Assembly: GCA_947258735.1 (NCBI GenBank) | Contig: CAMYJJ010000083.1 | Span: 1 to 10,668 of the forward strand | Reading direction: 5' to 3' | Source: Thermodesulfovibrionia bacterium | GTDB lineage: Bacteria > Nitrospirota > Thermodesulfovibrionia > UBA6902 | Length of the DNA stretch: 10,668 nt | In this document: piece by piece, positions 1 to 10,668 of the stretch | Numbering within the stretch: the stretch's first letter is position 1 | How the letters are laid out: each line of letters starts with the position of its first letter | The notes under the pieces: generated by a model | Told to the model about the DNA's origin: nothing | Database searches by the model: none | What the model saw: only the letters and a program-made list of their open reading frames with translations | Translations under genes and position numbers: made by a program

Positions 1-736
1 CTCTCTTTTTTGCTTTTGCATTAATACCGCTGCATACCCTCCAAAAGTCGCGGATACTTGCCACATAATCCTTTCCCGGCATGACCCGTTCAAAACTGTG
101 GGCAAGCAGGGGGTCGGTTTTTATTCCCCGGCGCTGAAATACTTTTTTCATTATAGGATAGGCGATCTGTTCGGTGGTGCCCGGAGCAACCGTGGTCTCA
201 ATGAGCACAAGGGTATCAGGTGAAATGTATTCGGCCATGATTGCCAGGGATTCTTCCAGCGGCCCCATTACCGCATGGCCGTTGCGTACATTTCCTATGT
301 CCTCTTTATGATAGTCGCACTGAATATCAACAACGACAACGTCAGCAAGAGATAACACATCATACGTAAAGGTAGCGGTCAGGGTTTTCTTGTCCAGGAC
401 ACATCTTTCAATCATGGGGGCGAGTTCTTTATCTTCAGATATGACAGGTGATACTCCTTTGTTTAATACAGGGATTTTCCAATAGCTTCTTGTACTTGGT
501 CTCTGCATGCCGATAACATATTTTGTTGGATTCCCTTTTGAGTCCTCTGTGTCAGCTACAACGGCAGCCATTGCAGCGCCTACAAACCCGACCCCCATCA
601 CAACAACGATCTCTCTCTTTAATTTTCGCTGTTTTGCTACGGTTGTCTTAAGACGCCGGATTTCTTTTTTATAATCTTCTTTTGCAGGTAAGGCAAACTT
701 TTCACCGTCAGGGCTCACCGAATATTCAGAACTCAT
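1..736 (-). CDS. Nucleotide-sugar dehydrogenase (UDP-glucose/UDP-ManNAc dehydrogenase family), N-terminal part
   Basis: The family oxidises C6 of a nucleotide sugar to a uronic acid with NAD, for capsule, O-antigen or other surface polysaccharide synthesis in the cytoplasm. Translating the minus strand from ATG 736 gives 245 residues running off the left edge; the family is usually about 420-440 aa. A Rossmann dinucleotide-binding motif GVGFVG lies at residues 48-53. ETTVAPGTTE at 180-189 and HSFERVMPG at 213-221 are typical of the central family region. The catalytic-cysteine region lies beyond the window. About 40 charged residues precede the Rossmann strand, longer than in most members. 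The start is supported by GGAGAG about 8 bases upstream. The substrate (UDP-Glc, UDP-ManNAc, GDP-Man or other) cannot be decided from this half. A TATAAT-like box sits at 811-816 (minus strand), with no good -35. Confidence 0.9.
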   Translation of the reverse strand, partial: MSSEYSVSPDGEKFALPAKEDYKKEIRRLKTTVAKQRKLKREIVVVMGVGFVGAAMAAVVADTEDSKGNPTKYVIGMQRPSTRSYWKIPVLNKGVSPVISEDKELAPMIERCVLDKKTLTATFTYDVLSLADVVVVDIQCDYHKEDIGNVRNGHAVMGPLEESLAIMAEYISPDTLVLIETTVAPGTTEQIAYPIMKKVFQRRGIKTDPLLAHSFERVMPGKDYVASIRDFWRVCSGINAKAKKR

Positions 737-857
737 TTAACAGGCTCTCCTTATTTAATCTTTTATATAGTTTGTTTAAGTGTTCAATGAATATAAATAT
801 GATATATGACATTATATCGGCTGGTTGAGAATATTTCTTGAGAAATTTGTAGCTGCT

Positions 858-968
858 CAGGGACAAAGGGATAAAGGGATAAAGATTAAAAGTATTTACC
901 AAAGGTATTGTTGTTAAAACTTTGTGCCTTTGTCCCTTTGTGCCTTAGTGCCTGCCGGTACCGGCAGG
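858..968. repeat. Dispersed repeat A, copy 1: imperfect inverted repeat of GGCACAAAG-type units plus a GC palindrome
   Basis: The left arm 860-884 consists of units like GGGACAAAG/GGGATAAAG. It is the reverse complement of 920-944 at 21 of 25 positions, separated by a 35-base AT-rich centre. Positions 905-940 match 2874-2909 (copy 2) at 33 of 36 bases. A perfect 18-base palindrome, CCTGCCGGTACCGGCAGG, abuts it at 951-968. The element forms the 3' end of the cupin gene, supplying its last codons and its stop. No transposase is present, so if mobile it would be a non-autonomous or MITE/REP-like element (inference). Confidence 0.75.
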
Positions 969-1510
969 TCCCTTCTGGCATTAACAATGCAAAAAAAACC
1001 AAAAGGCCCGGAAAAGGGGTTATAAAGGCGGTGAGGTTCACTCGGCTTGATATAGAGCACATCCATACAACTCAGCTCAATATCTCGTTTACTGATCTTT
1101 GCCCTGCCTTTCCCCCTCACTGCGATTACAACATGTTCATGTTTATGTTTCTCAAAACTGCTGTATCCGTCAGGTTCAATTTCAAAATATCTCAGATGAA
1201 ATTTTGTGGTTTCACCGTTTGACCCGATTAGTGCCTGTCTGGTGATCCCGCGCCAGTCCTGTTTTTCTGATTTATACTCCCGGACCCTGACACCGTTCCA
1301 CCTGAAGTTGTCCTGAAATCTGTAATGCCTGTTTTGGTTGCGGTTTTTTTTACCGGTAGTTTCCGGCAGTTCACACGAAGTAAATTTGCTCTTATCGGGC
1401 ATGAAAAGATTATAGCGAAACAACACATATATGACAAACAGGATGGTCAGGGAGACTTCCTCATTGTCGGTCTCTTGTAGGAGAAAATTATTACTGGAAC
1501 GTGTTGACAT
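914..1510 (-). CDS. Small cupin-domain protein
   Basis: A single-domain cupin (small beta-barrel, usually binding one metal); the substrate is unknown. Numbering is for the 198-aa form. The core runs from about 70 to 182. Motif 1 has G115, H122, H124 and H126; motif 2 is P-S-E-P-H160 followed by N164. The core ends in GFFCIVNARRDLP, very like the 'GF.C.VNAERDRP' ending I recall for a widespread cupin family. The start is uncertain: neither ATG 1510 nor the internal ATG at 1402 (162 aa, MPDKSKF...) has a clear Shine-Dalgarno, and residues 1-36 look unlike the family, so the shorter form is plausible. Roughly the last 16 residues and the stop are encoded by repeat A and its palindrome, a secondarily acquired tail. 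It is divergent from argD. Confidence 0.75.
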   Translation of the reverse strand: MSTRSSNNFLLQETDNEEVSLTILFVIYVLFRYNLFMPDKSKFTSCELPETTGKKNRNQNRHYRFQDNFRWNGVRVREYKSEKQDWRGITRQALIGSNGETTKFHLRYFEIEPDGYSSFEKHKHEHVVIAVRGKGRAKISKRDIELSCMDVLYIKPSEPHRLYNPFSGPFGFFCIVNARRDLPVPAGTKAQRDKGTKF

Positions 1511-1575
1511 TCTTAATTATTTATGATGAATCAATGCTTTTGTAACGCCAATGAATTATGTTATATTTCTAGACA

Positions 1576-2775
1576 ATGGAAAAAAAGTTGATTCATGATT
1601 CAAAGAAATATCTTATGAACACCTATAACCGCTATCCTATTGTTCTCAGGAAAGGCAGGGGCACGAAGGTTTGGAGTGCGGATGGCAGGGAATATCTGGA
1701 TTTTATAGCCGGAATAGCGGTCAACTGCCTTGGCCACTGTCATCCCAGGGTCGTGATTTCCCTTCAAAAGCAGGCTCAGAGACTCTTACATGTATCCAAC
1801 CTGTATCATATTGAGCCCCAGATAAAACTGGCAAAACTGCTTGTAGAAAACTCTTTTGCTGACAAGGCGTTTTTTTGCAATTCCGGGGCAGAAGCCGTGG
1901 AAGGAGCGATTAAACTTGCCCGAAAATATGCCAGGGACCATGCATTTCATGGAAAATATGAGATTATCACGGCATATGGTTCATTCCACGGCAGGACCCT
2001 TGCTGCTTTAAGTGCAACCGGTCAGGAATCACTGCAAAAGGGTTTTGAGCCGCTTGTCCAGGGGTTCAAGAGCGTTCCCTTTAATGACATTGACGCCCTG
2101 GAAGAGGCCATAACAAAAAAAACATGTGCTATCATGCTTGAGCCGGTCCAGGGTGAAGGAGGCATACGGATTCCTCATCCGGACTATTTTAAGCAGGTCC
2201 GGGAGTTGTGTGACAGGAATGATATTCTGTTAATACTTGATGAGATCCAGACAGGGATAGGACGTACAGGGAAGCTTTTTGCGTATGAACACTTTAACGT
2301 AACACCCGATATAATGACCCTGGCAAAGGGACTTGGAGGAGGTATTGCCATAGGCGCACTACTGGCAAAGGAATCTGTGGCCGCATCATTTCAACCAGGG
2401 ACCCATGCATCAACATTCGGCGGTAACCCTCTGGCCTGTGCAGTGGCAATTACAACGCTTGAAACATTACTGGAAGACGGCTTTCTCCTTTCAAACTGCG
2501 AACATCTAGGGAAGTATTTTCTGAAGAAACTTGCTACACTACAGCGGGAATTTCCATCACTTATTATTGAAGCCAGGGGACTTGGCCTTATGATCGGGCT
2601 TGAGCTGACAAAGACAGGCGGTGCTATTGTAGAGAAGTGCGCATCAAGGGGAGTGCTTATCAACTGCACAAGCGGTAATGTGCTTCGTTTTACTCCGCCA
2701 TTGATAGTTTTGGAAAAGGAAATTGATCATTTAATAGATGTTCTTGAGGACATTTTTGAGAGAGAACCGCACTAA
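1576..2775 (+). CDS. argD: Acetylornithine aminotransferase
   Basis: Class III PLP-dependent aminotransferase converting N-acetylglutamate 5-semialdehyde to N2-acetylornithine with glutamate as amino donor (arginine biosynthesis, cytoplasm). Many homologues also serve lysine synthesis or act on succinylornithine. The 399 aa match the family length. Visible motifs are CNSGAEA at 101-107 (PLP phosphate), GSFHGRT at 135-141, LDEIQTGIGRTG at 221-232 with D222 under the PLP ring, the Schiff-base lysine K251 in TLAKGLGGG, and THASTFGGNP at 276-285. The start at 1576 keeps the usual dozen residues before MNTYNRYP. No Shine-Dalgarno is visible. A TTGTAA-N16-TATATT promoter-like pair (1540-1567) ends just before the ATG, so a leaderless or nearly leaderless message is possible (inference). 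It is followed by argF after a 170-bp gap holding a repeat. Confidence 0.95.
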   Translation: MEKKLIHDSKKYLMNTYNRYPIVLRKGRGTKVWSADGREYLDFIAGIAVNCLGHCHPRVVISLQKQAQRLLHVSNLYHIEPQIKLAKLLVENSFADKAFFCNSGAEAVEGAIKLARKYARDHAFHGKYEIITAYGSFHGRTLAALSATGQESLQKGFEPLVQGFKSVPFNDIDALEEAITKKTCAIMLEPVQGEGGIRIPHPDYFKQVRELCDRNDILLILDEIQTGIGRTGKLFAYEHFNVTPDIMTLAKGLGGGIAIGALLAKESVAASFQPGTHASTFGGNPLACAVAITTLETLLEDGFLLSNCEHLGKYFLKKLATLQREFPSLIIEARGLGLMIGLELTKTGGAIVEKCASRGVLINCTSGNVLRFTPPLIVLEKEIDHLIDVLEDIFEREPH

Positions 2776-2814
2776 ACAGTAACAATATAAAGGAAAGAAA
2801 TAACTACTCAGGTA

Positions 2815-2921
2815 GGCACAAAGGCACACAGTTACAAAGGGACATAGTGAAAAAAGATTAACATATTTTTCATGTATTGTTGTTAAAACATTGTGCCTGT
2901 GTGCCTTTGTTACTTTGCACC
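2815..2921. repeat. Dispersed repeat A, copy 2, between argD and argF
   Basis: An imperfect inverted repeat. 2817-2831 (CACAAAGGCACACAG) is the reverse complement of 2897-2911 with one mismatch, and further GGCACAAAG-like units lie on both sides. The stretch 2874-2909 matches 905-940 at 33 of 36 bases, including GTATTGTTGTTAAAAC. The element lies in the leader of argF. Read through in frame it creates a false 23-residue N-terminal extension of ArgF. No terminator-like T-run follows the inverted repeat. Confidence 0.75.
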
Positions 2922-2945
2922 AAAATAGTTACGGAAAGAGAAGTA

Positions 2946-3848
2946 ATGAAAAGGGATTTTCTTACATTACAGGACATTTCGTCAGACGAATTTCATGCAA
3001 TTATAAAAAGGGCCTCTGAATTCAAGTCAGGCAAGGACAGGAATGCATGTCCGCTCATCGGAAAAAGCATTGGGCTGCTTTTTGACAAGACATCGACGAG
3101 AACAAGGATATCTTTTCAGACCGGCATATATCAGCTTGGTGCCCAGCCGATTTATATCAACTCAAATGAACTGCAGCTTGGACGGGGAGAAACTGTTGAG
3201 GATACGGCAAAAGTTATTTCGCGGTATCTGCATGGTATTGTCATCAGGACATTTGCACACAGTACAATCGAAAAACTGGCTGCCAACTCCTCCATCCCTA
3301 TTGTAAACGGCTTGACAGACCTTCATCATCCATGCCAGGCACTTGCTGATATGCTCACGATATGGGAGCAGAAGGGTGCTTTAAAAAATATACGGCTTGT
3401 GTATGTGGGTGACGGGAATAACGTTGCCAATTCACTTATGGAAGCAGCCCTTCATACCGGCGTTGAGCTCGCCCTGGCCTGTCCCCGTGGGTATGATCCT
3501 GACCGGAACATATTTGAATATGTGAAGGAAAACGGAGGGAACGTTCAATTGTATACAGAACCTGAGGATGCGGTAAAGGATGCTGATGTGATATATACCG
3601 ATGTATGGATAAGCATGGGGCAGGAAAGAGAAGCAGAAAGAAGAAGACAGATTTTCAAGAGATATCAGGTGAACAAAGATCTTCTGTCATTGGCAAAACC
3701 GGATGCCATTGTTATGCACTGCCTGCCTGCCCACAGGGAAGAGGAGATTACCAGTGAGGTGCTTGACTCTCCGCAAAGCGTGGTCATAGACCAGGCTGAA
3801 AACAGACTGCACACACAGAAGGCAATGCTGGAAATGCTGATCCAATGA
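2946..3848 (+). CDS. argF: Ornithine carbamoyltransferase
   Basis: Catalyses carbamoyl phosphate + ornithine to citrulline + phosphate, in the arginine pathway, as a cytoplasmic trimer. The 300 aa from ATG 2946 are the normal size. The carbamoyl-phosphate loop is STRTR at residues 50-54. HPCQ is at 128-131, the ornithine loop contains D219 and SMG at 223-225, and HCLPAHR at 258-264 is the diagnostic catalytic loop. The frame stays open upstream to a TTG at 2877. ATG 2946 is preferred because GGAAAGAGAAG lies just upstream, the protein then starts like its family, and the upstream 23 codons are merely repeat A read in frame. Its stop overlaps the gpmI start by 4 bases (ATGA). With argD it covers two arginine steps; no other arg gene is in view. 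Confidence 0.95.
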   Translation: MKRDFLTLQDISSDEFHAIIKRASEFKSGKDRNACPLIGKSIGLLFDKTSTRTRISFQTGIYQLGAQPIYINSNELQLGRGETVEDTAKVISRYLHGIVIRTFAHSTIEKLAANSSIPIVNGLTDLHHPCQALADMLTIWEQKGALKNIRLVYVGDGNNVANSLMEAALHTGVELALACPRGYDPDRNIFEYVKENGGNVQLYTEPEDAVKDADVIYTDVWISMGQEREAERRRQIFKRYQVNKDLLSLAKPDAIVMHCLPAHREEEITSEVLDSPQSVVIDQAENRLHTQKAMLEMLIQ

Positions 3849-5371
3849 CGAAACCTGTAATGCTTTTGGTCCTGGATGGATGGGGGATTTCATCTACGCC
3901 GGATTCAGATGCACAGGCCAGGGCGAATATCCCATTTTACAGAAGTCTTCTGGAAAAATATCCCGATACAGCACTTGAATGCGCTGGTGAGGCAGTAGGT
4001 CTTCCTGAAGGGACCATGGGCAACTCTGAGGTCGGACATCTCAATCTTGGTGCAGGCCGTGTCGTGTACCAGGATTTCGCAAGGATCAACAAGGCCATAA
4101 CAGACGGGGAGTTCATAAAAAACCGGGCCTTTGTCGAAGCAATGGAAGGGGCCGCAATAAATAAAAGGGCAGTGCATTTTCTTGGATTATTATCAGACGG
4201 GGGAGTTCACAGTCATATTGATCATCTCTACGCGCTTATTGATCTGGCCATATCAAAAGGGATAGAGAAGATATTTATTCATGCATTCATGGATGGGAGA
4301 GATACGCCTCCTGATTCTGGAATTAAGTACATTAATGTCCTCGAATCTTTTCTGCATGACAAGCCCAGTGCAAAGATAGCAACAGTGACAGGCAGGTACT
4401 GGGCTATGGACAGGGACAACAGATGGGAAAGGGTTGAAAAGGCATATAAGGGACTTATTCTCGGTGAGGGCAAAAAGGTCAAGACTGCATCAGAAGCAGT
4501 TGAAGCGAGTTACAAGGCAAATGAGATGGACGAATTTATTAAACCGTCAATTATCTGTTATGACGATAAACCAATCGGAAGTATTAATGATGGAGATTCA
4601 GTGGTGTTTTTTAATTTCCGCGCTGACAGGGCGCGGGAGATCTCTGCTGCACTTGCCGGCAAAAACTTTAACGAATTTGCCAGGGACAGAGTGCCTGATC
4701 TGAAATCATACGTAACAATGACTATGTATGATGATGACTTTGATTTCCCAGTTGCCTATCCACATGTAAAACTCACAAACATTCTTGGTGAAATAATAAG
4801 CAGACAGGGGCTAAAACAGTTACGAATAGCAGAGACTGAAAAATACGCCCATGTGACGTATTTTTTCAATGGGGGTGAAGAAGAGCCCTTTCCCGGAGAG
4901 GACAGGTGCCTCATTCCTTCTCCCAAAGAGGTTGCCACGTATGATCTTAAACCGGAAATGAGCGCATATGAAGTCACTGATGAAGTGCTTGAAAGGCTTG
5001 AACAGAACACGTATGATTTCATCCTTCTAAATTTTGCAAACCCGGACATGGTAGGACATACAGGGATAATGAATGCGGCCATCAAGGCCTGTGAAACTGT
5101 TGATGCATGTCTTAAGAGGATCGTTGAAAAGGTCCAGGCCCTTGGAGGGCTTGCAATTATTACTGCTGACCACGGTAATAGTGAACAGATGGAGAACAAT
5201 ACCGGTGCTCATACTGCGCACACGCTAAATCCGGTACCTTTTTTACTTCTCAGTGAAAATTATACATTAAGAGACAAAGGCATACTTGCAGATGTGGCGC
5301 CCACTGTGCTTGATATAATGGGGATTGAACAGCCGGAAGAAATGACCGGTCATAGTTTAATAAAAAAATAG
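3845..5371 (+). CDS. gpmI: 2,3-bisphosphoglycerate-independent phosphoglycerate mutase
   Basis: Interconverts 3- and 2-phosphoglycerate in glycolysis/gluconeogenesis, using two Mn ions and a phosphoserine intermediate. The 508 aa are typical of the iPGM class of the alkaline phosphatase superfamily. Seen motifs: LVLDGWG with metal ligand D11; TMGNSEVGH with the phosphoryl-acceptor S61; HAFMDGRDTPP at 146-156; NFRADRAR at 257-264; EKYAHVTYFFNGG at 332-344; DMVGHTG at 401-407; TADHGNSEQM at 440-449; and HTLNPVPF at 459-466. The ATG overlaps the argF stop and no strong Shine-Dalgarno is seen, so translation is probably coupled to argF. Pairing a glycolytic enzyme with argF gives no obvious pathway link and is probably operonic convenience. 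Confidence 0.97.
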   Translation: MTKPVMLLVLDGWGISSTPDSDAQARANIPFYRSLLEKYPDTALECAGEAVGLPEGTMGNSEVGHLNLGAGRVVYQDFARINKAITDGEFIKNRAFVEAMEGAAINKRAVHFLGLLSDGGVHSHIDHLYALIDLAISKGIEKIFIHAFMDGRDTPPDSGIKYINVLESFLHDKPSAKIATVTGRYWAMDRDNRWERVEKAYKGLILGEGKKVKTASEAVEASYKANEMDEFIKPSIICYDDKPIGSINDGDSVVFFNFRADRAREISAALAGKNFNEFARDRVPDLKSYVTMTMYDDDFDFPVAYPHVKLTNILGEIISRQGLKQLRIAETEKYAHVTYFFNGGEEEPFPGEDRCLIPSPKEVATYDLKPEMSAYEVTDEVLERLEQNTYDFILLNFANPDMVGHTGIMNAAIKACETVDACLKRIVEKVQALGGLAIITADHGNSEQMENNTGAHTAHTLNPVPFLLLSENYTLRDKGILADVAPTVLDIMGIEQPEEMTGHSLIKK

Positions 5372-5620
5372 GGGTCAAGAAACCCAGGGGACAAGGGTTC
5401 AAATAAATCGGTGTCTATCCATTGACGATGTTTGTTTGCCTGTCATTCCGGCATTCTTTAAGCCGGAATCCAGTCTTTTTAATAGAACTGGATGCCCGAT
5501 TAAGGACTGCGAGCATGACAATAATTAATAAATCATTTTATGCACAGACTCTAAATCAATGTTGATTAATATATTTTTCTCAAATTACTTTATCAGCACC
5601 CTGGGCCCCTCGAACCCTTT
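5371..5620. repeat. Spacer between gpmI and comF holding nested inverted repeats
   Basis: The 258-bp spacer 5372-5629 has no credible gene. Its two ends carry related sequences in inverted orientation: a GGGGTCAAG...CCCAGGGG...AAGGGTTC block at 5371-5400 and a CCCTGGGCCCC...GAACCCTT block at 5600-5619. The match is imperfect, about 14 of 20 in the best alignment found by eye. The palindromic element B copy 1 sits between them. There is no clear terminator with a T-run and no convincing promoter for comF. Confidence 0.45.
5441..5520. repeat. Palindromic repeat B, copy 1 (TGTCATTCC...ATGACA element)
   Basis: An 80-base element that starts TGTCATTCCGGC and ends GCATGACA, so its termini TGTCAT/ATGACA are inverted. 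Inside, ATCCAGT (5469-5474 region) pairs with ACTGGAT (5487-5493 region), and CCGGC...GCCGG forms a separate small hairpin in the left half. Elements with this layout (GTCATTCC...GGAATCCAG...CTGGAT...ATGACA) recur across many environmental bacterial genomes as dispersed intergenic palindromes (recalled). A related copy is at 7796-7871. Confidence 0.7.
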
Positions 5621-5629
5621 ATGTAAACT

Positions 5630-6328
5630 ATGCTCAACAAAGTATTAAACATATTTTTTCCTGAAATTTGCCCAATATGTCAGTGTCAATGCCAAAATCA
5701 TGAAACAGCTCCTGTCTGCACCGACTGCTGGAAATCGATCAGCCAATACAAAGGACCCATTTGCCAAAAGTGCGGGGCCCCCCTGGTATCTGAAGCTTCA
5801 ACAATATGCGGCGAGTGTCTGAAACAGACCCCTGCCTTTGCATGTGCCAGGAGCTATGGGGTATATGATCATGCATTGAAAAAAGGGATTAACCTTCTGA
5901 AGTATCACGGAAAGAAAAGGTTGTCACGGCCGCTGTCTAAATTGCTGATACAGGCCGGTCTTCCAGAGGCAGACATCGTGATCCCGGTGCCTCTTCATCA
6001 CAGGCGTCTGAGGAAAAGAGAGTTTAACCAGTCAGCGCTTATTTCAAAACACATTGCAGAAGAAACAAATTCCAGGCTTGTTCTGGACTGTCTGGTCAAA
6101 GTCAGGGACACTCTGCCTCAAGTTGGACTAAGATATAAAGCAAGAGTGAAAAATATCAAAGGGGCATTTGAAGTCATGAACTGGAAGCTCATAAAAGACA
6201 CGAAGATAATGCTGGTTGATGATGTGGTAACAACAGGAGCTACTATTCGTGAATGCTCACATACTCTTAAAGAGGCAGGTGCAGGAGAAATCCATGTAAT
6301 CTCCCTTGCCCATGGAATGAGTGATTAG
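5630..6328 (+). CDS. comF: ComF family protein (zinc-finger phosphoribosyltransferase-like)
   Basis: ComF-family proteins combine N-terminal zinc fingers with a type I phosphoribosyltransferase domain. In naturally competent bacteria they act in the cytosol during DNA uptake; in most genomes the substrate is unknown. The 232 aa show four CxxC pairs at C14/C17, C30/C33, C45/C48 and C60/C63, enough for two zinc sites. They also show the conserved GVYDHALKKGINLLKYHGKK region (77-96), VPLHHRRLRKREFNQS (120-135), and the PRPP-binding loop MLVDDVVTTGAT at 194-205. ATG 5630 puts the first Cys pair at the usual place; no Shine-Dalgarno is visible. No other competence genes are in the window, so involvement in DNA uptake is not shown here. 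It converges on the minus-strand selenoprotein gene. Confidence 0.92.
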   Translation: MLNKVLNIFFPEICPICQCQCQNHETAPVCTDCWKSISQYKGPICQKCGAPLVSEASTICGECLKQTPAFACARSYGVYDHALKKGINLLKYHGKKRLSRPLSKLLIQAGLPEADIVIPVPLHHRRLRKREFNQSALISKHIAEETNSRLVLDCLVKVRDTLPQVGLRYKARVKNIKGAFEVMNWKLIKDTKIMLVDDVVTTGATIRECSHTLKEAGAGEIHVISLAHGMSD

Positions 6329-6353
6329 GTCTTATGAAAAATGAATTTGAATA

Positions 6354-6372
6354 CCCCGTTTTGTAAACGGGG
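6354..6372. terminator. Hairpin between convergent genes, possible terminator
   Basis: CCCCGTTT-TGT-AAACGGGG is a perfect 8-bp stem with a 3-base loop, 25 bases after the comF stop. No uninterrupted T-run follows on either strand, only T-rich sequence at 6381-6390. A second, weaker CCCC...TTTGAAAAC-GGGG hairpin follows at 6397-6414 and shares the GGGGAT end, so the pair may instead be a dispersed palindromic repeat. The position between the converging comF and selenoprotein genes fits a bidirectional transcription end. Confidence 0.45.
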
Positions 6373-6476
6373 ATGAAGAGTTTTCCTTTTAAGTCTCCCC
6401 CTTTGAAAACGGGGATTACAGATTAAATTATCATTAATAAAAATTTTATTTTGAAGCTCCCCACAAACTGCATGTA

Positions 6477-6493
6477 ACCGGCAAACTGCCGGT
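6477..6493 (-). promoter_or_regulatory. Candidate bacterial SECIS hairpin for the C-terminal UGA
   Basis: On the minus-strand RNA, ACCGGCA-GUU-UGCCGGU folds into a perfect 7-bp stem with a 3-base loop. The loop begins with G, 19 bases after the UGA at 6507-6505. From memory, bacterial SECIS models ask for a short stem, a G in the first two loop positions and an apical loop some 16-37 bases after the UGA; this fits. No T-run follows, which argues against an intrinsic terminator. The stem begins inside the tandem UGA at 6495-6493, so it lies almost wholly in the 3' untranslated region. Recognition by SelB is inferred. Confidence 0.6.
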
Positions 6494-6495
6494 CA

Positions 6496-6708
6496 TCAGA
6501 TCCCTCAGGAGCCACCATACCCAACAGCGACTTTTCCTCCATTCACAATTACAGGGACCTTTCTTTCTCCATTGGAATGCTGTAACATTTCCTCCATCCT
6601 GGCACTGTCAGCCTGCACATCATAATAAACTGCACCTGAATAGTCCACACGGGCCTTGTCAGTGTACGGTCAACCGCCTTTACCATAAATAATAATATTA
6701 TCTGTCAT
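6496..6708 (-). CDS. Glutaredoxin-like selenoprotein with two in-frame UGA codons (Uxx-star type)
   Basis: Readable only with UGA as selenocysteine (U). From ATG 6708 the minus strand reads MTDNIIIYGKGG-U13-PYT16 and ends VGYGGS67-U68-G-I-stop, 70 residues in all. GAGGAGG lies 7 bases before the ATG, the best ribosome site in the window. The fold is glutaredoxin-like: a beta strand (NIIIYGKGG) leads into the redox motif U-P-Y-T where glutaredoxins have C-P-Y-C. A helix (DKARVDY), the strand AVYYDV, a helix (SARMEEMLQHS), the cis-proline segment RKVPVIV (49-55) and the strand KVAVGYGG follow. The family recalled is the Uxx-star (seleno)glutaredoxins, with Sec third from the end. Both UGAs have hairpins 3' of them. 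Stops at 6498-6496 and 6495-6493 are also UGA. A pseudogene is unlikely because everything else is intact. The redox partner is unknown. Confidence 0.85.
6636..6662 (-). promoter_or_regulatory. Candidate SECIS hairpin for the N-terminal UGA (codon 13)
   Basis: Within the coding RNA, CUGA (bases 8-11 after the UGA) pairs with UCAG (31-34), AG (14-15) with CU (27-28), and CC (17-18) with GG (24-25). This leaves a five-base loop CGUGU at 19-23 with G second. The stem has a 2x2 internal loop and one G/A mismatch, so it is weaker than the 3' hairpin. Its distance and loop G suit the recalled bacterial SECIS pattern. Folded by eye only. Confidence 0.35.
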
Positions 6709-6788
6709 TGTATTGCCTCCTCATTGTTATAATAGACATCATTATATCAGATCACTCGAAGCATAAACCATTATTGATCAATACATTT
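6709..6788. promoter_or_regulatory. Divergent promoter region between the selenoprotein and nucleotidyltransferase genes
   Basis: Two perfect TATAAT boxes face opposite ways. The minus-strand one, at 6746-6741, would start transcription about 25 bases before the selenoprotein ATG, leaving room for its GAGGAGG ribosome site. The plus-strand one, at 6728-6733, would start near 6740, upstream of TTG 6774 and TTG 6789 but downstream of TTG 6708. Neither has a good -35 hexamer at the normal distance, so both are tentative. Confidence 0.4.
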
Positions 6789-7589
6789 TTGAATAATTCA
6801 GTCGCACCCACATATCTCATTATCCCTGCGGCAGGGCTTGGCACGAGAATGAAACAGGTTAATCCTGACCTGCCAAAAGAGATGCTTTCCATAGGAAATA
6901 AGCCCGCAATTCAGTATGCTGTGGAAGAAGGCATATCTGCCGGAATAAAGAATATGGTCGTTGTTTTAAATGAACAAAAAGAGGTCATCCGACAGTATCT
7001 TGAAACGCAATATCGAGGTTCAACCTCGATATCATTTACTTATACGTATCAAAAAGAGCCTTTGGGTGAATCCGACGCCATCGGTTATGCAAGGGATATT
7101 GTCGGTAATAATGCAGTTGCTGTTATTTATCCGGACAATGTATATCTGCCGGCTCCCGGAGCTTTAAAGGCGCTCATCCCGGTTTACAATAAATACAATA
7201 GAGATGTTGTAGCCCTTTCCCAGGTGAGTCCGGATATAGCCCTTACGATCAGTAATGCCGGACGGGTAGATATTTCTCCTTTAAATAACGGTCTGTTCAA
7301 TATTAGTAAATTCATACCAAAAGGCGAAGGACATTTCATCCCGCACTTCAGGAATGAACTGCGGGCATGCGGTATATATGTTTCAGGGCCTCACTTGTTT
7401 GATCATATTGAGATGACGCGAAGTACTGTCAGCAAAGGAGAGTTTACTGACTATCCTGTGAGGACGTCTATTCTAAAAGAGCGAGGAATGACAGGATGTC
7501 TTCTTGACGGGACAGTTTTTGATATAGGGAACCCAAAGGGATATGCATTATGTTTAAAATATATGAAAGATAGTGCTGACCTGAAATAG
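6789..7589 (+). CDS. Sugar-1-phosphate nucleotidyltransferase (GalU-like)
   Basis: NTP-transferase family: joins an NTP and a sugar-1-phosphate to give a nucleotide sugar and pyrophosphate. The signature IIPAAGLGTRM with the downstream LPKEMLSIGNKPAIQY is the nucleotide-binding start, closest to UTP-glucose-1-phosphate uridylyltransferases. YPDN at 7131-7142 is the metal-binding acidic site, and TVFDIGNPKGY near the C-terminus matches the GalU-type sugar site. The start is unclear: there is no ATG before the signature, only TTG codons at 6708, 6774 and 6789, none with a Shine-Dalgarno. TTG 6789 gives 266 aa and a normal N-terminus. TTG 6708 would overlap the first base of the divergent selenoprotein start codon and read through its ribosome site, so it is disfavoured. 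UDP-glucose is the likely product but not proven; it could feed the dehydrogenase at 1-736. Confidence 0.85.
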   Translation: MNNSVAPTYLIIPAAGLGTRMKQVNPDLPKEMLSIGNKPAIQYAVEEGISAGIKNMVVVLNEQKEVIRQYLETQYRGSTSISFTYTYQKEPLGESDAIGYARDIVGNNAVAVIYPDNVYLPAPGALKALIPVYNKYNRDVVALSQVSPDIALTISNAGRVDISPLNNGLFNISKFIPKGEGHFIPHFRNELRACGIYVSGPHLFDHIEMTRSTVSKGEFTDYPVRTSILKERGMTGCLLDGTVFDIGNPKGYALCLKYMKDSADLK

Positions 7590-7598
7590 TTTAGGCTG

Positions 7599-7772
7599 AT
7601 GACAGATAAAAAAGTTTACTGCAATAAATGCATACATTTTTATGTGACCTGGGACAACAAGGCCCCCAGGGGCTGCAGGGCAATGGGATTTAAGACCAAA
7701 AGCATGCCTTCCCATGTTGTCTTTAAATCATCAGGGGTCCAGTGTTTAAAGTTTAAAGAGAAGAAAGGGTAA
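7599..7772 (+). CDS. Small four-cysteine protein, putative zinc-binding
   Basis: A 57-residue reading frame, beginning MTDKKVYCNKCIHFYVTWD, starts 9 bases after the nucleotidyltransferase stop and ends at TAA 7770-7772. Cysteines are C8, C11, C26 and C49, in the pattern C-x2-C-x14-C-x22-C, enough for one zinc site. The text around them (HFYVTWD, P-R-G-C-R-A-M-G-F-K, P-S, S-G-V-Q-C-L-K-F) matches a small conserved protein I recall from Geobacter-like and Nitrospirota genomes. That protein is often mislabelled 'uracil-DNA glycosylase', although it is far too short for that activity. The ribosome site is weak (AGG just upstream), so translation may be coupled to the gene before. Function unknown. 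Confidence 0.75.
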   Translation: MTDKKVYCNKCIHFYVTWDNKAPRGCRAMGFKTKSMPSHVVFKSSGVQCLKFKEKKG

Positions 7773-7795
7773 TTTCCCATTCGCCGTTGATGCAG

Positions 7796-7871
7796 TGTCA
7801 TTCCTGCTTGTCCGGAATTTTCCAGTTGCCTGTGTTTTAGATTCCCGTAGCGCTTAGCTTGCGGAATGACA
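7796..7871. repeat. Palindromic repeat B, copy 2
   Basis: A 76-base element whose termini TGTCATTCCTGC and GCGGAATGACA are inverted repeats with a one-base difference in length. The inside also carries TCCGGAAT, TTTCCAG and ATTCCCG, as in copy 1 at 5441-5520, but the inner stem is eroded. It fills about half of the 160-bp gap before the radical SAM gene. No promoter was recognised in the remainder (7872-7938). Confidence 0.65.
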
Positions 7872-7938
7872 GCCTTATGAGTTATTTTTTCTCCAAATTG
7901 CATTTCAGTAAATCCCTGTGGGATAATGATAATTGCCC

Positions 7939-10503
7939 ATGAATTATGCAATTTTCAGGAAGCCCAGCAGGTATATCGGGAATGAGCTAAATATAATCAA
8001 AAAACAGGGAGATATAAAAGTTGCTCTCTGTTTTCCTGATACCTACGAGATCGGGATGTCCCATCTGGGGCTTAAAATTCTTTATTCCATTATTAATGAA
8101 ATTCCTAATGCTTCGGCTGAAAGGGCTTTTGCCCCCTGGGTAGATTTTGAGTCTTATCTTCGAGAGAATAACCTTCCTTTGACTTCGCTGGAGTTTGAAC
8201 GGCCCCTGAATGAATTTGATATTGTGGGCTTTACCCTCCAGTATGAGCTGTCTTATACCAATGTTCTGAATATGATCGATCTTGGCGGAATACCGATAAG
8301 AAGCGGAGACCGGGACGATTTACACCCTCTAATCATTGCAGGAGGTCCCTGCGCTGTTAATCCTTTGTCTCTGGCACCTTTTATAGATGCATTTGTGATC
8401 GGTGACGGAGAGGATATTGTAAAGGAGATAATTGAAACTTACTCAGGTAGTCAGGAGTCAGGCAACAGGAGTCATGAGTCTGGAGTGGGGAGTCGGGGGT
8501 TAAGAAGAAGAAACAGAAAAGAAGTATTAAAGACGCTTGCTGAAATTGAAGGGATGTTTGTTCCTTCTGTTCATGATGGAACGGGCAAAGTCATTAAGAA
8601 ACGGATTGTTGATGACCTTGAACATGCCAGTTTCCCTGATAAACCGCTTCTTCCTTATACGACAATTGTTCATGACCGAGTCACTATTGAAATATCAAGA
8701 GGATGTACAAAGGGATGCCGTTTTTGTCAGGCAGGAATGATGTACAGGCCGCTCAGGGAAAGGTCCCTTGAGAAAGTTCAGTCCCTTGCTCAAAAGTCCC
8801 TTGCAAGCACAGGCTACAATGAAATATCTTTTACGTCCCTCAGTGCAGGTGATTACACTGATCTGCTGCCGCTTATCCGGAATTTCAATAAACAGTGTGA
8901 GGGTGCCCATACAGCAGTCTCGTTACCTTCCTTACGGGTGGGAGCAATAAATACAGAGATTTTAAAAGAGATAAAGAGCGTGAGAAAGACGGGATTTACG
9001 ATCGCTCCTGAAGCAGGAACAAAAAGACTGCGTGATGTGATAAACAAGGATTTTTCCGATGAGGAATATGAAGAGACGCTGAATAAGATATTTTCGCTTG
9101 GCTGGACCAATGTAAAGCTCTATTTCATGATCGGACTTCCGCAGGAGACGATAACAGACATTGACGGGCTTATTGAAATGGCGGTAAAAGCGCTCAAAAA
9201 GGGACGGCACATAACAGGGAAAAAGGTGAATGTAAATGTGAGCATATCACCCTTTGTGCCCAAACCGCATACGCCGTTTCAGTGGGTCGGGCAGGACACA
9301 AAGGATGAACTGAGAAAAAAGCAGGATTACATCAAGAGGGCATTCAGAAAAAAGAAGATAAATTTCAAGGGCCAGTATGTTGAACACAGTATTCTTGAGG
9401 CTGTGTTTTCCAGGGGCGGCAGGGGCTGTGCAGACCTCCTTGAGCATGCATGGAAAAAGGGATGCAGGTTTGAGGGATGGTCAGAGCATTTTGATTTTGA
9501 AAAATGGCTTGATGCGGCTGATGAAACCGGTATTGACCTTTATGAGTATGCATCCAGGTCATTTAACCCTGAACATGACCTGCCATGGGATTTTATCGAT
9601 ACGGGCATTAAAGAGAGTTTTTTTAAATCAGAGTATGATAAGGCACTGAAAGGTACAATCAGTAAAGATTGCCGGGAGCAGTGTTATGGGTGCGGGCTGG
9701 AATGCGGGGAGAGAAATCAGGAGTCAGGAGCCTTGCCTGCCGGCAGGCAGGTCAGGAGTCAGGGATTAGAACTCGATAGTCAAAAGTCAGTGGACACAGA
9801 AAACAGGACAAGCACAACGGACGTTATTCGCCGTCCTTCAGTGCGAACCAAGCTCCGGGTCAGGTTTTCCAAAACCGGCATGATGCGTTATCTTTCCCAT
9901 AATGAATTAATTTTATCAATCATCAGGGCGGTCAAGAGGGCGGACATTCCTGTTGCATTTTCTGAGGGATTTCATCCCCATCCAAAGATCTCATTCGGGC
10001 CGGCACTGCCTTCCGGAGTTGAAGGCATGCAGGAGTTTTTTGATATTGAGCTGACGGAATTAATGCATGAGACTGATTTTATATTTATGATGAACTCTCA
10101 ACTGCCGGAGGGTCTTGAAATTAAAAGTGCTGTTTTGATCCCTGAGGGGGAGAAGTCCCTGAGTGAGATAATATCCTGTTATACTTATGAGGTACATATT
10201 GACAAAGAGGATGCGAAAAGCATACATTCATTCACTAAACTGGAGAGCGTAATAGTAACGAGGAAGAACAAAAAGGTGGATATCCGTCCGATGGTGACGA
10301 AAGCTAACATTCAGAATAATAAGCTTTTATTAGAAGTGATTGATACTGACACAGCAAATACAAGACTATATGAAATATTGCAGGAAATGCTTCACAAGAC
10401 ACTGGAAGAGGTGCAATCCATGAGAATAACAAGAACAGGATTGTATGGCAATAATAAAGTTGATCACGTATCATCCGAAAAGATAAGAGAATATGGCAGG
10501 TAA
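7939..10503 (+). CDS. Radical SAM protein fused to a DUF2344 domain (TIGR03960-TIGR03936 type)
   Basis: Starting at ATG 7939 (854 aa; a TTG lies 2 codons upstream). Residues from about 10 to 170 resemble the B12-binding-like N-terminal part of such radical SAM proteins (ALCFPDTYEIGMSHLGL, VGFTLQYELSYTNVL, AGGPCAVNPLSLAPFIDAF, GDGE). The radical SAM core has EISRGCTKGCRFCQAG with the iron-sulfur cysteines C256, C260 and C263 (CX3CX2C). A second cluster, C578/C582/C585/C589, may hold metal. From about residue 637 comes the DUF2344 domain (KLRVRFSKTGMMRYLSHNEL, FSEGFHPHPKISFGPALPSGVEG). The family function is uncharacterised; its frequent neighbour is ribonuclease G, as here, hinting at an RNA-related role. 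Two stretches, residues 169-193 and about 594-620, are encoded by inserted dispersed repeats. The gene overlaps rng by 11 bases. Confidence 0.93.
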   Translation: MNYAIFRKPSRYIGNELNIIKKQGDIKVALCFPDTYEIGMSHLGLKILYSIINEIPNASAERAFAPWVDFESYLRENNLPLTSLEFERPLNEFDIVGFTLQYELSYTNVLNMIDLGGIPIRSGDRDDLHPLIIAGGPCAVNPLSLAPFIDAFVIGDGEDIVKEIIETYSGSQESGNRSHESGVGSRGLRRRNRKEVLKTLAEIEGMFVPSVHDGTGKVIKKRIVDDLEHASFPDKPLLPYTTIVHDRVTIEISRGCTKGCRFCQAGMMYRPLRERSLEKVQSLAQKSLASTGYNEISFTSLSAGDYTDLLPLIRNFNKQCEGAHTAVSLPSLRVGAINTEILKEIKSVRKTGFTIAPEAGTKRLRDVINKDFSDEEYEETLNKIFSLGWTNVKLYFMIGLPQETITDIDGLIEMAVKALKKGRHITGKKVNVNVSISPFVPKPHTPFQWVGQDTKDELRKKQDYIKRAFRKKKINFKGQYVEHSILEAVFSRGGRGCADLLEHAWKKGCRFEGWSEHFDFEKWLDAADETGIDLYEYASRSFNPEHDLPWDFIDTGIKESFFKSEYDKALKGTISKDCREQCYGCGLECGERNQESGALPAGRQVRSQGLELDSQKSVDTENRTSTTDVIRRPSVRTKLRVRFSKTGMMRYLSHNELILSIIRAVKRADIPVAFSEGFHPHPKISFGPALPSGVEGMQEFFDIELTELMHETDFIFMMNSQLPEGLEIKSAVLIPEGEKSLSEIISCYTYEVHIDKEDAKSIHSFTKLESVIVTRKNKKVDIRPMVTKANIQNNKLLLEVIDTDTANTRLYEILQEMLHKTLEEVQSMRITRTGLYGNNKVDHVSSEKIREYGR
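8443..8500. repeat. Repeat C, in-coding copy 1 (CAGGAGT units)
   Basis: A degenerate tandem of about 7-base AGTCAGG/AGGAGTC units inside the radical SAM gene, including the 12-mer TCAGGAGTCAGG at 8451-8462. It translates in frame to a low-complexity S/Q/E/G/R segment (SGSQESGNRSHESG...) in the linker between the N-terminal domain and the radical SAM core. Confidence 0.7.
9717..9764. repeat. Repeat C, in-coding copy 2, interrupted by a GC palindrome
   Basis: The 12-mer TCAGGAGTCAGG occurs at 9717-9728 and again at 9752-9763. Between the two lies a 16-base perfect palindrome, TGCCTGCCGGCAGGCA, at 9734-9749. The palindrome shares its CCTGCCGG/CCGGCAGG arms with the one at 951-968. The block is translated in frame as ESGALPAGRQVRSQG in the linker before the DUF2344 domain. 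Confidence 0.7.
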
Positions 10504-10668
10504 AATTATTATAAATGTATCTCCTGAGCAAACCAGGGTGGCACTGCTGGATACCAATGCCCTGCTGTCTGAGTTGTATATTGAACGGGTAAAAGATGTA
10601 AGTCTGGTCGGTAATGTATACAAGGGAAGAATCGTGAAGATCCTTCCGGGCATGCAGTCCGCTTTTGT
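10493..10668 (+). CDS. rng: Ribonuclease G/E family protein, N-terminal fragment
   Basis: 58 residues up to the right edge. Endoribonucleases of this family process rRNA precursors and start mRNA decay in the cytosol. After MAGKIIINVSPEQTRVALLD, the segment LYIERVKDVSLVGNVYKGRIVKILPGMQSAF is the conserved entry into the S1 RNA-binding domain of RNase G/E. The ATG lies inside the 3' end of the radical SAM gene (11-base overlap, different frame), with a weak AAGAGA just upstream, so translation is probably coupled. Catalytic DNase I-like and zinc-link regions lie outside the window, so RNase G and RNase E cannot be told apart, although the absence of a long N-terminal leader and the radical SAM neighbour suit RNase G. 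Confidence 0.92.
   Translation, partial: MAGKIIINVSPEQTRVALLDTNALLSELYIERVKDVSLVGNVYKGRIVKILPGMQSAF

Follow-up and report, generated by a model that had tools for sequence, protein, structure and literature searches.

Among the selenoproteins catalogued in a 2026 review (PMC13188914) is a 'Distant Grx-like protein 1 (UXX-star selenoprotein family 1)', where Grx is glutaredoxin; this is family NF041114, which carries the motif UxxT and two selenocysteine (Sec) residues and is ranked among the families predicted with high confidence. A 2022 review (PMC9312934), in the part that concerns this protein, also uses the name 'Distant Grx-like protein 1' and gives the motif as UxxT. For UXX-star family 1 the 2026 review cites Zhang and Gladyshev 2008 (PMC2398784), in the accessible main text of which UxxT appears only once, for an OsmC-like protein, and the Grx-like motif is given as UxxC. 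Here, we describe a gene on the minus strand of a 10,668-nucleotide stretch of Thermodesulfovibrionia DNA (contig CAMYJJ010000083.1, positions 1 to 10,668; hereafter the window). Our best explanation, to which we assign a probability of about 0.88, is that this is a chromosomal selenoprotein gene of UXX-star family 1, predicted to encode a Grx-type protein, in which UGA codons 13 and 68 are conserved as Sec codons, each with a hairpin of the selenocysteine insertion sequence (SECIS) type. Both in-frame UGAs are almost certainly read as Sec, and the features concerned are as follows.

6716..6722, minus strand: Shine-Dalgarno motif GAGGAGG, from the sequence
6496..6708, minus strand: predicted selenoprotein gene of UXX-star family 1, with 70 codons and a UGA stop (NF041114, 105.5 bits)
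6670..6672, minus strand: UGA codon 13, predicted Sec of U-P-Y-T (TGA in 63 of 68 sequences)
6642..6656, minus strand: SECIS-like hairpin of UGA13, AGGCC-CGUGU-GGACU (fixed-column pairing, covariation)
6505..6507, minus strand: UGA codon 68, predicted C-terminal Sec (TGA in 66 of 66 readable sequences)
6475..6495, minus strand: SECIS-like hairpin of UGA68, UGACCGGCA-GUU-UGCCGGUUA (stem scan against control stops)

Inspection of the sequence places the Shine-Dalgarno motif (6722-6716) 7 bases 5' of an ATG at 6708-6706, from which a frame of 70 codons runs to a terminating UGA at 6498-6496, itself directly followed by a second UGA (6495-6493). Codons 13 (6672-6670) and 68 (6507-6505) are the only internal stops, and translation with UGA as U gives MTDNIIIYGKGGUPYTDKARVDYSGAVYYDVQADSARMEEMLQHSNGERKVPVIVNGGKVAVGYGGSUGI, in which the motif at codon 13 is U-P-Y-T, the C-terminus is U68-G-I-UGA and the number of cysteines is zero; with two selenium atoms, the predicted mass is about 7.57 kDa. 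The sequence thereby confirms the Shine-Dalgarno motif, start codon, 70-residue frame and both UGA positions given in a preliminary description of this DNA, which had also stated, correctly, that the gene was missed by the calling of open reading frames (ORFs): the listing of ORFs of at least 60 amino acids has none on the minus strand at 6708-6496. Reading the letters directly can bring to light a double-Sec gene overlooked by such a listing. A scan of 6350-6900 returned no minus-strand sigma-70-type promoter pair upstream of the ATG; on that strand a TATAAT is present at 6746-6741, without a scored -35 element. The Rfam scan of the window returned a single match, to a miRNA, at chance level.

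With UGA taken as Sec, the protein scores 105.5 bits against the NCBIfam model NF041114, 'UXX-star selenoprotein family 1' (cut-off 72), 77 against the wider Uxx-star model NF041212 (cut-off 66) and 28.2 bits against the Pfam Glutaredoxin family PF00462 (gathering score 22.9). It agrees with the described family in score, U-x-x-T motif, two Sec residues, length of about 70 residues and C-terminal U-x-x-stop, and we found no difference between them; the last of these features was taken as part of the family definition from the name UXX-star, which fits the U-G-I-stop end. Judged by its sequence, the gene is another member of the described double-selenoprotein family NF041114 and not a new kind. 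UXX-star families 2 and 3 (NF041211, NF047338) and the HUGP/GUXX-star fusion (NF045501) have a related Grx-like domain, and the window protein obtains partial scores of 44.9 (cut-off 100), 40.7 (97) and 49.1 (325) against them, all below. Proteins of the glutaredoxin 3/NrdH type (PF00462, TIGR02181) share the fold and nucleophile position with the window protein, which differs in having no C-P-Y-C dithiol, no Cys and a tail ending in Sec, and in its length of 70 residues compared with 82 for E. coli Grx3; its score against TIGR02181 (Grx3) is 27.5, under the cut-off of 90, with U-P-Y-T in the place of C-P-Y-C. The earlier view of the protein as glutaredoxin-like is supported by the NF041114 and PF00462 scores and the fold matches in the PDB. 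These matches include 7c10 and 7c12, structures of cGrx1, likewise a bacterial Grx-fold protein, which we take to be the Sec-containing glutaredoxin of Clostridium oremlandii. According to the relevant entries of PMC13188914, Sec-containing Grx has the motif UxxC and one Sec, whereas the window protein has UxxT and a C-terminal Sec in addition.

We searched 395 Nitrospirota genomes, 61 of which hold the NF041114 family above its cut-off, and read 68 sequences at the two codons: the window and loci L001-L005 and L028-L089 (L088 and L089 fall below the family cut-off; L027, a duplicate of L004, was left out; codon 68 cannot be read in L005 and L088). Codons 13 and 68 are both TGA in 62 of the 68 sequences, window included, the remainder being Cys/TGA in three, Cys with an unreadable codon 68 in one (L005), TAA/TGA in one (L033) and TGA with an unreadable codon 68 in one (L088). 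Codon 68 is TGA in all 66 readable sequences, and the C-terminal Sec is never Cys (0/66 sequences; 56 proteins), whereas codon 13 is Cys in 4/68. The terminator lies three codons past codon 68 (TAA 27, TGA 20, TAG 18), with an extra codon in one gene. Two Sec codons, the first at the position of the first cysteine of C-P-Y-C, had been proposed from the window itself, and the homologues bear this out: the residues at these codons are not random, with Cys or mostly TGA at 13 and TGA at 68.

Five loci in genome records encode relatives, with tblastn identities of 83% over residues 1-59 for L002 (a Thermodesulfovibrionia metagenome-assembled genome, MAG), 73% for L004 (Nitrospiraceae bin97 chromosome) and 67% for L001 (a Nitrospirae MAG). 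The window is collinear with these three as far as each locus reaches, and nucleotide identity per aligned piece is about 80-88%, 73-86% and 67-72%, respectively, which places the window in a Nitrospirota-like genome. Within codons 1-69, most of the differences from the window affect third codon positions (23/34 against L002, 30/50 against L004 and 39/60 against L001), which argues that the frame is under protein selection, and a Shine-Dalgarno-like motif is present in 54 of the 62 double-TGA sequences. Three pattern matches were obtained from viral contigs, none of them a relative. For the protein alignment L033 was excluded, and alignment A3 holds 51 of 65 references, the other 14, several of them near-copies, being omitted. 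L033 (1489-1701 of G356:C63) has TAA at codon 13 and keeps UGA68 with its hairpin; its genome also has a divergent second copy, L089, with TGA at both sites, and L033 reflects either decay or an assembly error. In L088, which has UGA13, the frame is lost in the C-terminal part ahead of codon 68, the downstream hairpin sequence seemingly still being there in the translated tail.

The hairpin after UGA68 has nine contiguous pairs and the loop GUU, with its apical loop 18 nt after the UGA, and so agrees in loop, stem, G and spacing with the bacterial SECIS rules set out in PMC13188914, which call for a loop of 3-9 nt with a G among its first two bases, a stem of 4-16 bp and a distance of 16-37 nt from the UGA. 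Codon 68 is followed in 57 of 66 sequences by a stem of six or more contiguous pairs with the required loop G, at 16-37 nt, compared with a mean of 14.2 and a maximum of 21 in 100 shuffles, and stems of at least 6 bp follow only 28 of 160 control stops from the same loci, these controls being the ends of open stretches of at least 150 codons, which may include non-genes. At this site 38 of 65 loops are GUU, GUC, GGU or AGUU, and 58 of 65 are spaced 17-20 nt from the UGA. Since this hairpin lies beyond the stop codon, protein coding cannot explain it.

The site-13 hairpin of the window is weaker, with the loop CGUGU 18 nt after the UGA and a stem of two pairs, a G-A mismatch and two pairs (4/5), so that it fails a contiguous 5-bp rule. 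In the contiguous-stem scan, 51 of 63 sequences with UGA13 (Sec rows) have at least 5 bp at this site (shuffle maximum 29); at 6 bp the count is 12/63, below the shuffle maximum of 18. Because the window fails the 5-bp rule and three of five non-TGA rows pass it, we prefer a fixed-column test here. For a stem of five pairs that closes a five-base loop at 18 nt, 92.7% of cells across the 63 Sec rows are paired, compared with 13-64% when the columns are slid by 1-3, and in 54 of 63 rows a G stands at the first or second position of the loop. Two of the stem pairs (20-26 and 17-29) link third codon positions, and these synonymous positions covary: 20-26 is paired in 62/63 rows (C-G 51, U-A 9, A-U 2, unpaired 1; permutation maximum 57 in 10,000 trials) and 17-29 in 57/63 (permutation maximum 55), the permutations ignoring kinship in both cases. 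Placed on a 62-protein tree of weak resolution, the U-A state of pair 20-26 requires seven changes, two of them forced by the starred branches. The Cys13 loci L003, L005 and L084 keep one, one and two of the five pairs. Comparison of relatives thus supports both SECIS-type elements, one of which lies outside the reading frame; of the earlier claim that a hairpin stands at SECIS distance after each UGA, the part on site 68 holds strongly, and the part on site 13 has the support of conservation across the Sec rows, with a window stem that the mismatch breaks.

The genes for Sec synthesis and insertion, which the preliminary description had proposed to look for, were sought in relatives. Of the 61 genomes with the gene, 56 have a selA match (E of at most 0.001), compared with 121 of the 334 genomes that lack the gene (Fisher p 7e-17, kinship ignored). 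G002 and G004, genomes of close relatives, have selA and selB above the cut-offs, and selD too. The selD genes of G001, G004 and, split into two pieces, G002 score above the cut-off, and each has one in-frame TGA of its own, which also points to Sec use. G003, G005 and G147 each have a whole tRNA-Sec, in the case of G147 although selA was not found there; a degenerate pattern search recovered tRNA-Sec in one of eight genomes (G147). With the Rfam tRNA-Sec model, G001, G002 and G004 gave only sub-cut-off matches among 150 scored candidates per genome, and ARAGORN assigns the best of these to tRNA-Leu and tRNA-Ser. Around selA and selB of the same three genomes, ARAGORN and Rfam returned only a tRNA-Trp. 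BLAST with the G147 tRNA-Sec matched, in G004, the first 53 bases including the anticodon at 92%, followed by a run of N (L091 1501-1553); in G001, 26- and 27-base stretches of the 3' part and a 29-base inner stretch; and in G002, 26 bases of the 3' part. On inspection, five of the BLAST-matched loci did not contain a whole tRNA. The machinery seen in the closest genomes comprises selA, selB and selD in G002 and G004, with a partial tRNA-Sec, and Sec genes are thus not missing from close relatives.

For decoding, SelB with Sec-tRNA would read both UGAs, and the UGA of codon 71 would act as terminator, being just 9 nt away from the apical loop. The family is well sampled, with 62 double-Sec sequences; that its C-terminal Sec is never Cys in this sample, and that most members lack Cys, prompts one to ask what the two selenols do and why both have been retained. 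We see even odds that the product is a small selenol oxidoreductase. In such an enzyme Sec13 would take the place of the C-P-Y-C nucleophile of glutaredoxin, with Thr16 replacing the resolving Cys, and Sec68 on the C-terminal tail would partner Sec13, in a Sec13-Sec68 diselenide or in passing electrons. The preliminary description rightly pointed to a U-P-Y-T motif with no resolving Cys, and it proposed either a selenenylsulfide or a diselenide for the C-terminal Sec; the former is impossible within one chain, since the window protein has no Cys, and the bond, which would be compatible with the data, would have to be Sec13-Sec68. Cys is absent from 57 of the 62 double-Sec proteins, in which any redox pair within a single chain could only be Sec-Sec. 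We raise tentatively, with the odds leaning against it, a cysteine-free 'all-selenium' redoxin whose only redox residues would be two selenols joined in an intramolecular Sec13-Sec68 diselenide, in which Sec68 would be indispensable and Sec13 sometimes Cys. If this is true, a Grx-fold enzyme with a diselenide for its resting pair would be catalytically unusual.

Several observations count against these proposals. PMC13188914, where it lists UXX-star family 1, gives it as predicted and not verified. No selA was found in five of the 61 gene-bearing genomes (G026, G046, G089, G147 and G328), that of G038, counted among the 56, is only a weak match, and G001 has a partial selA and no selB above the cut-off. 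No whole tRNA-Sec was found in G001, G002 or G004 with the Rfam model, ARAGORN, the pattern or BLAST. At site 13, the G-A mismatch of the window stem is common to 13 of the 63 Sec rows, L004, a close relative of the window with Cys13, keeps four of the five pairs, and the stem was picked by eye on these same sequences, which biases the comparison with the slid controls. Neither window hairpin, folded alone, beats dinucleotide shuffles (z of -0.81 and -1.18, with 39/200 and 24/200 shuffles folding as well); single folds are uninformative, and it is by comparing relatives that structure can be argued for. The best Foldseek E-value of the window protein against the PDB is only 1.5e-3, and the scores of glutaredoxins are nearly matched by those of GST and SspA-type thioredoxin-like domains. 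The PDB alignments do not reach residues 67-70, so that a Sec13-Sec68 contact is putative. The four Cys13 loci, three of them with a readable Sec68, indicate that the diselenide would not be obligatory.

An explanation that we consider unlikely accepts a selenoprotein of this family and makes its two selenols a soft metal or metalloid site or carrier, for mercury or arsenic for example, and not a redox pair. The lack of Cys in 57/62 proteins would suit such a site, as would a codon 68 that is Sec and never Cys in the 66 readable sequences, which fits a role needing selenium chemistry itself. However, the Grx-type fold and nucleophile position favour selenol-disulfide chemistry, and no gene family recurs widely alongside the gene. 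Far less credible is that UGA encodes tryptophan (code 4) in an ordinary W-containing variant. Of 56 public homologous proteins, 42 are indeed deposited with W at both positions, the mark of UGA translated by code 4, and the other 14 (protein records only) stop just before position 68, eight with Cys13 and six without the N-terminus. Tryptophan, though, is no natural substitute at a pair of redox positions, nor one to alternate with Cys13, and the reading is refuted in practice by the 20 of 66 homologues that end at their own TGA stop three codons on, by long window genes such as 3845-5371 and 7933-10503, which are open under table 11 with Trp as TGG, and by selA, selB and selD in relatives. 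A decayed gene or sequencing errors, as two stops within 70 codons and the TAA at codon 13 of L033 might suggest, can be dismissed, as the preliminary description had already done in the case of decay, because 61 further loci carry both of these stops, with substitutions concentrated in third codon positions and the Shine-Dalgarno-like motif present in most double-TGA sequences.

Turning to the surroundings of the predicted selenoprotein gene, no neighbourhood was conserved across the family among loci longer than 1.5 kb. When 70 neighbour ORFs were clustered by similarity, without annotation, the largest cluster had six members (window, L001, L002, L004, L037 and L042), and the place of the gene appears partly conserved within its own clade. 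The adjoining gene, window ORF 5630-6328, belongs to a family common to L037 and L042, and the family of window ORF 7933-10503 is common to L037, L051 and L056. This latter ORF, of 856 amino acids, has in-frame repeat stretches of GTCAGGAGTC-like units at 8450-8494 and 9695-9781 and a palindrome, TGCCTGCCGGCAGGCA, at 9734-9749; these look like insertions into linkers, and the alignment to L001 and L004 breaks at the 9695-9781 stretch. Repeats of the CCTTTGTGCCTTTGT type, direct and inverted, lie around genes at window positions 905-954, 2814-2863 and 2874-2921.
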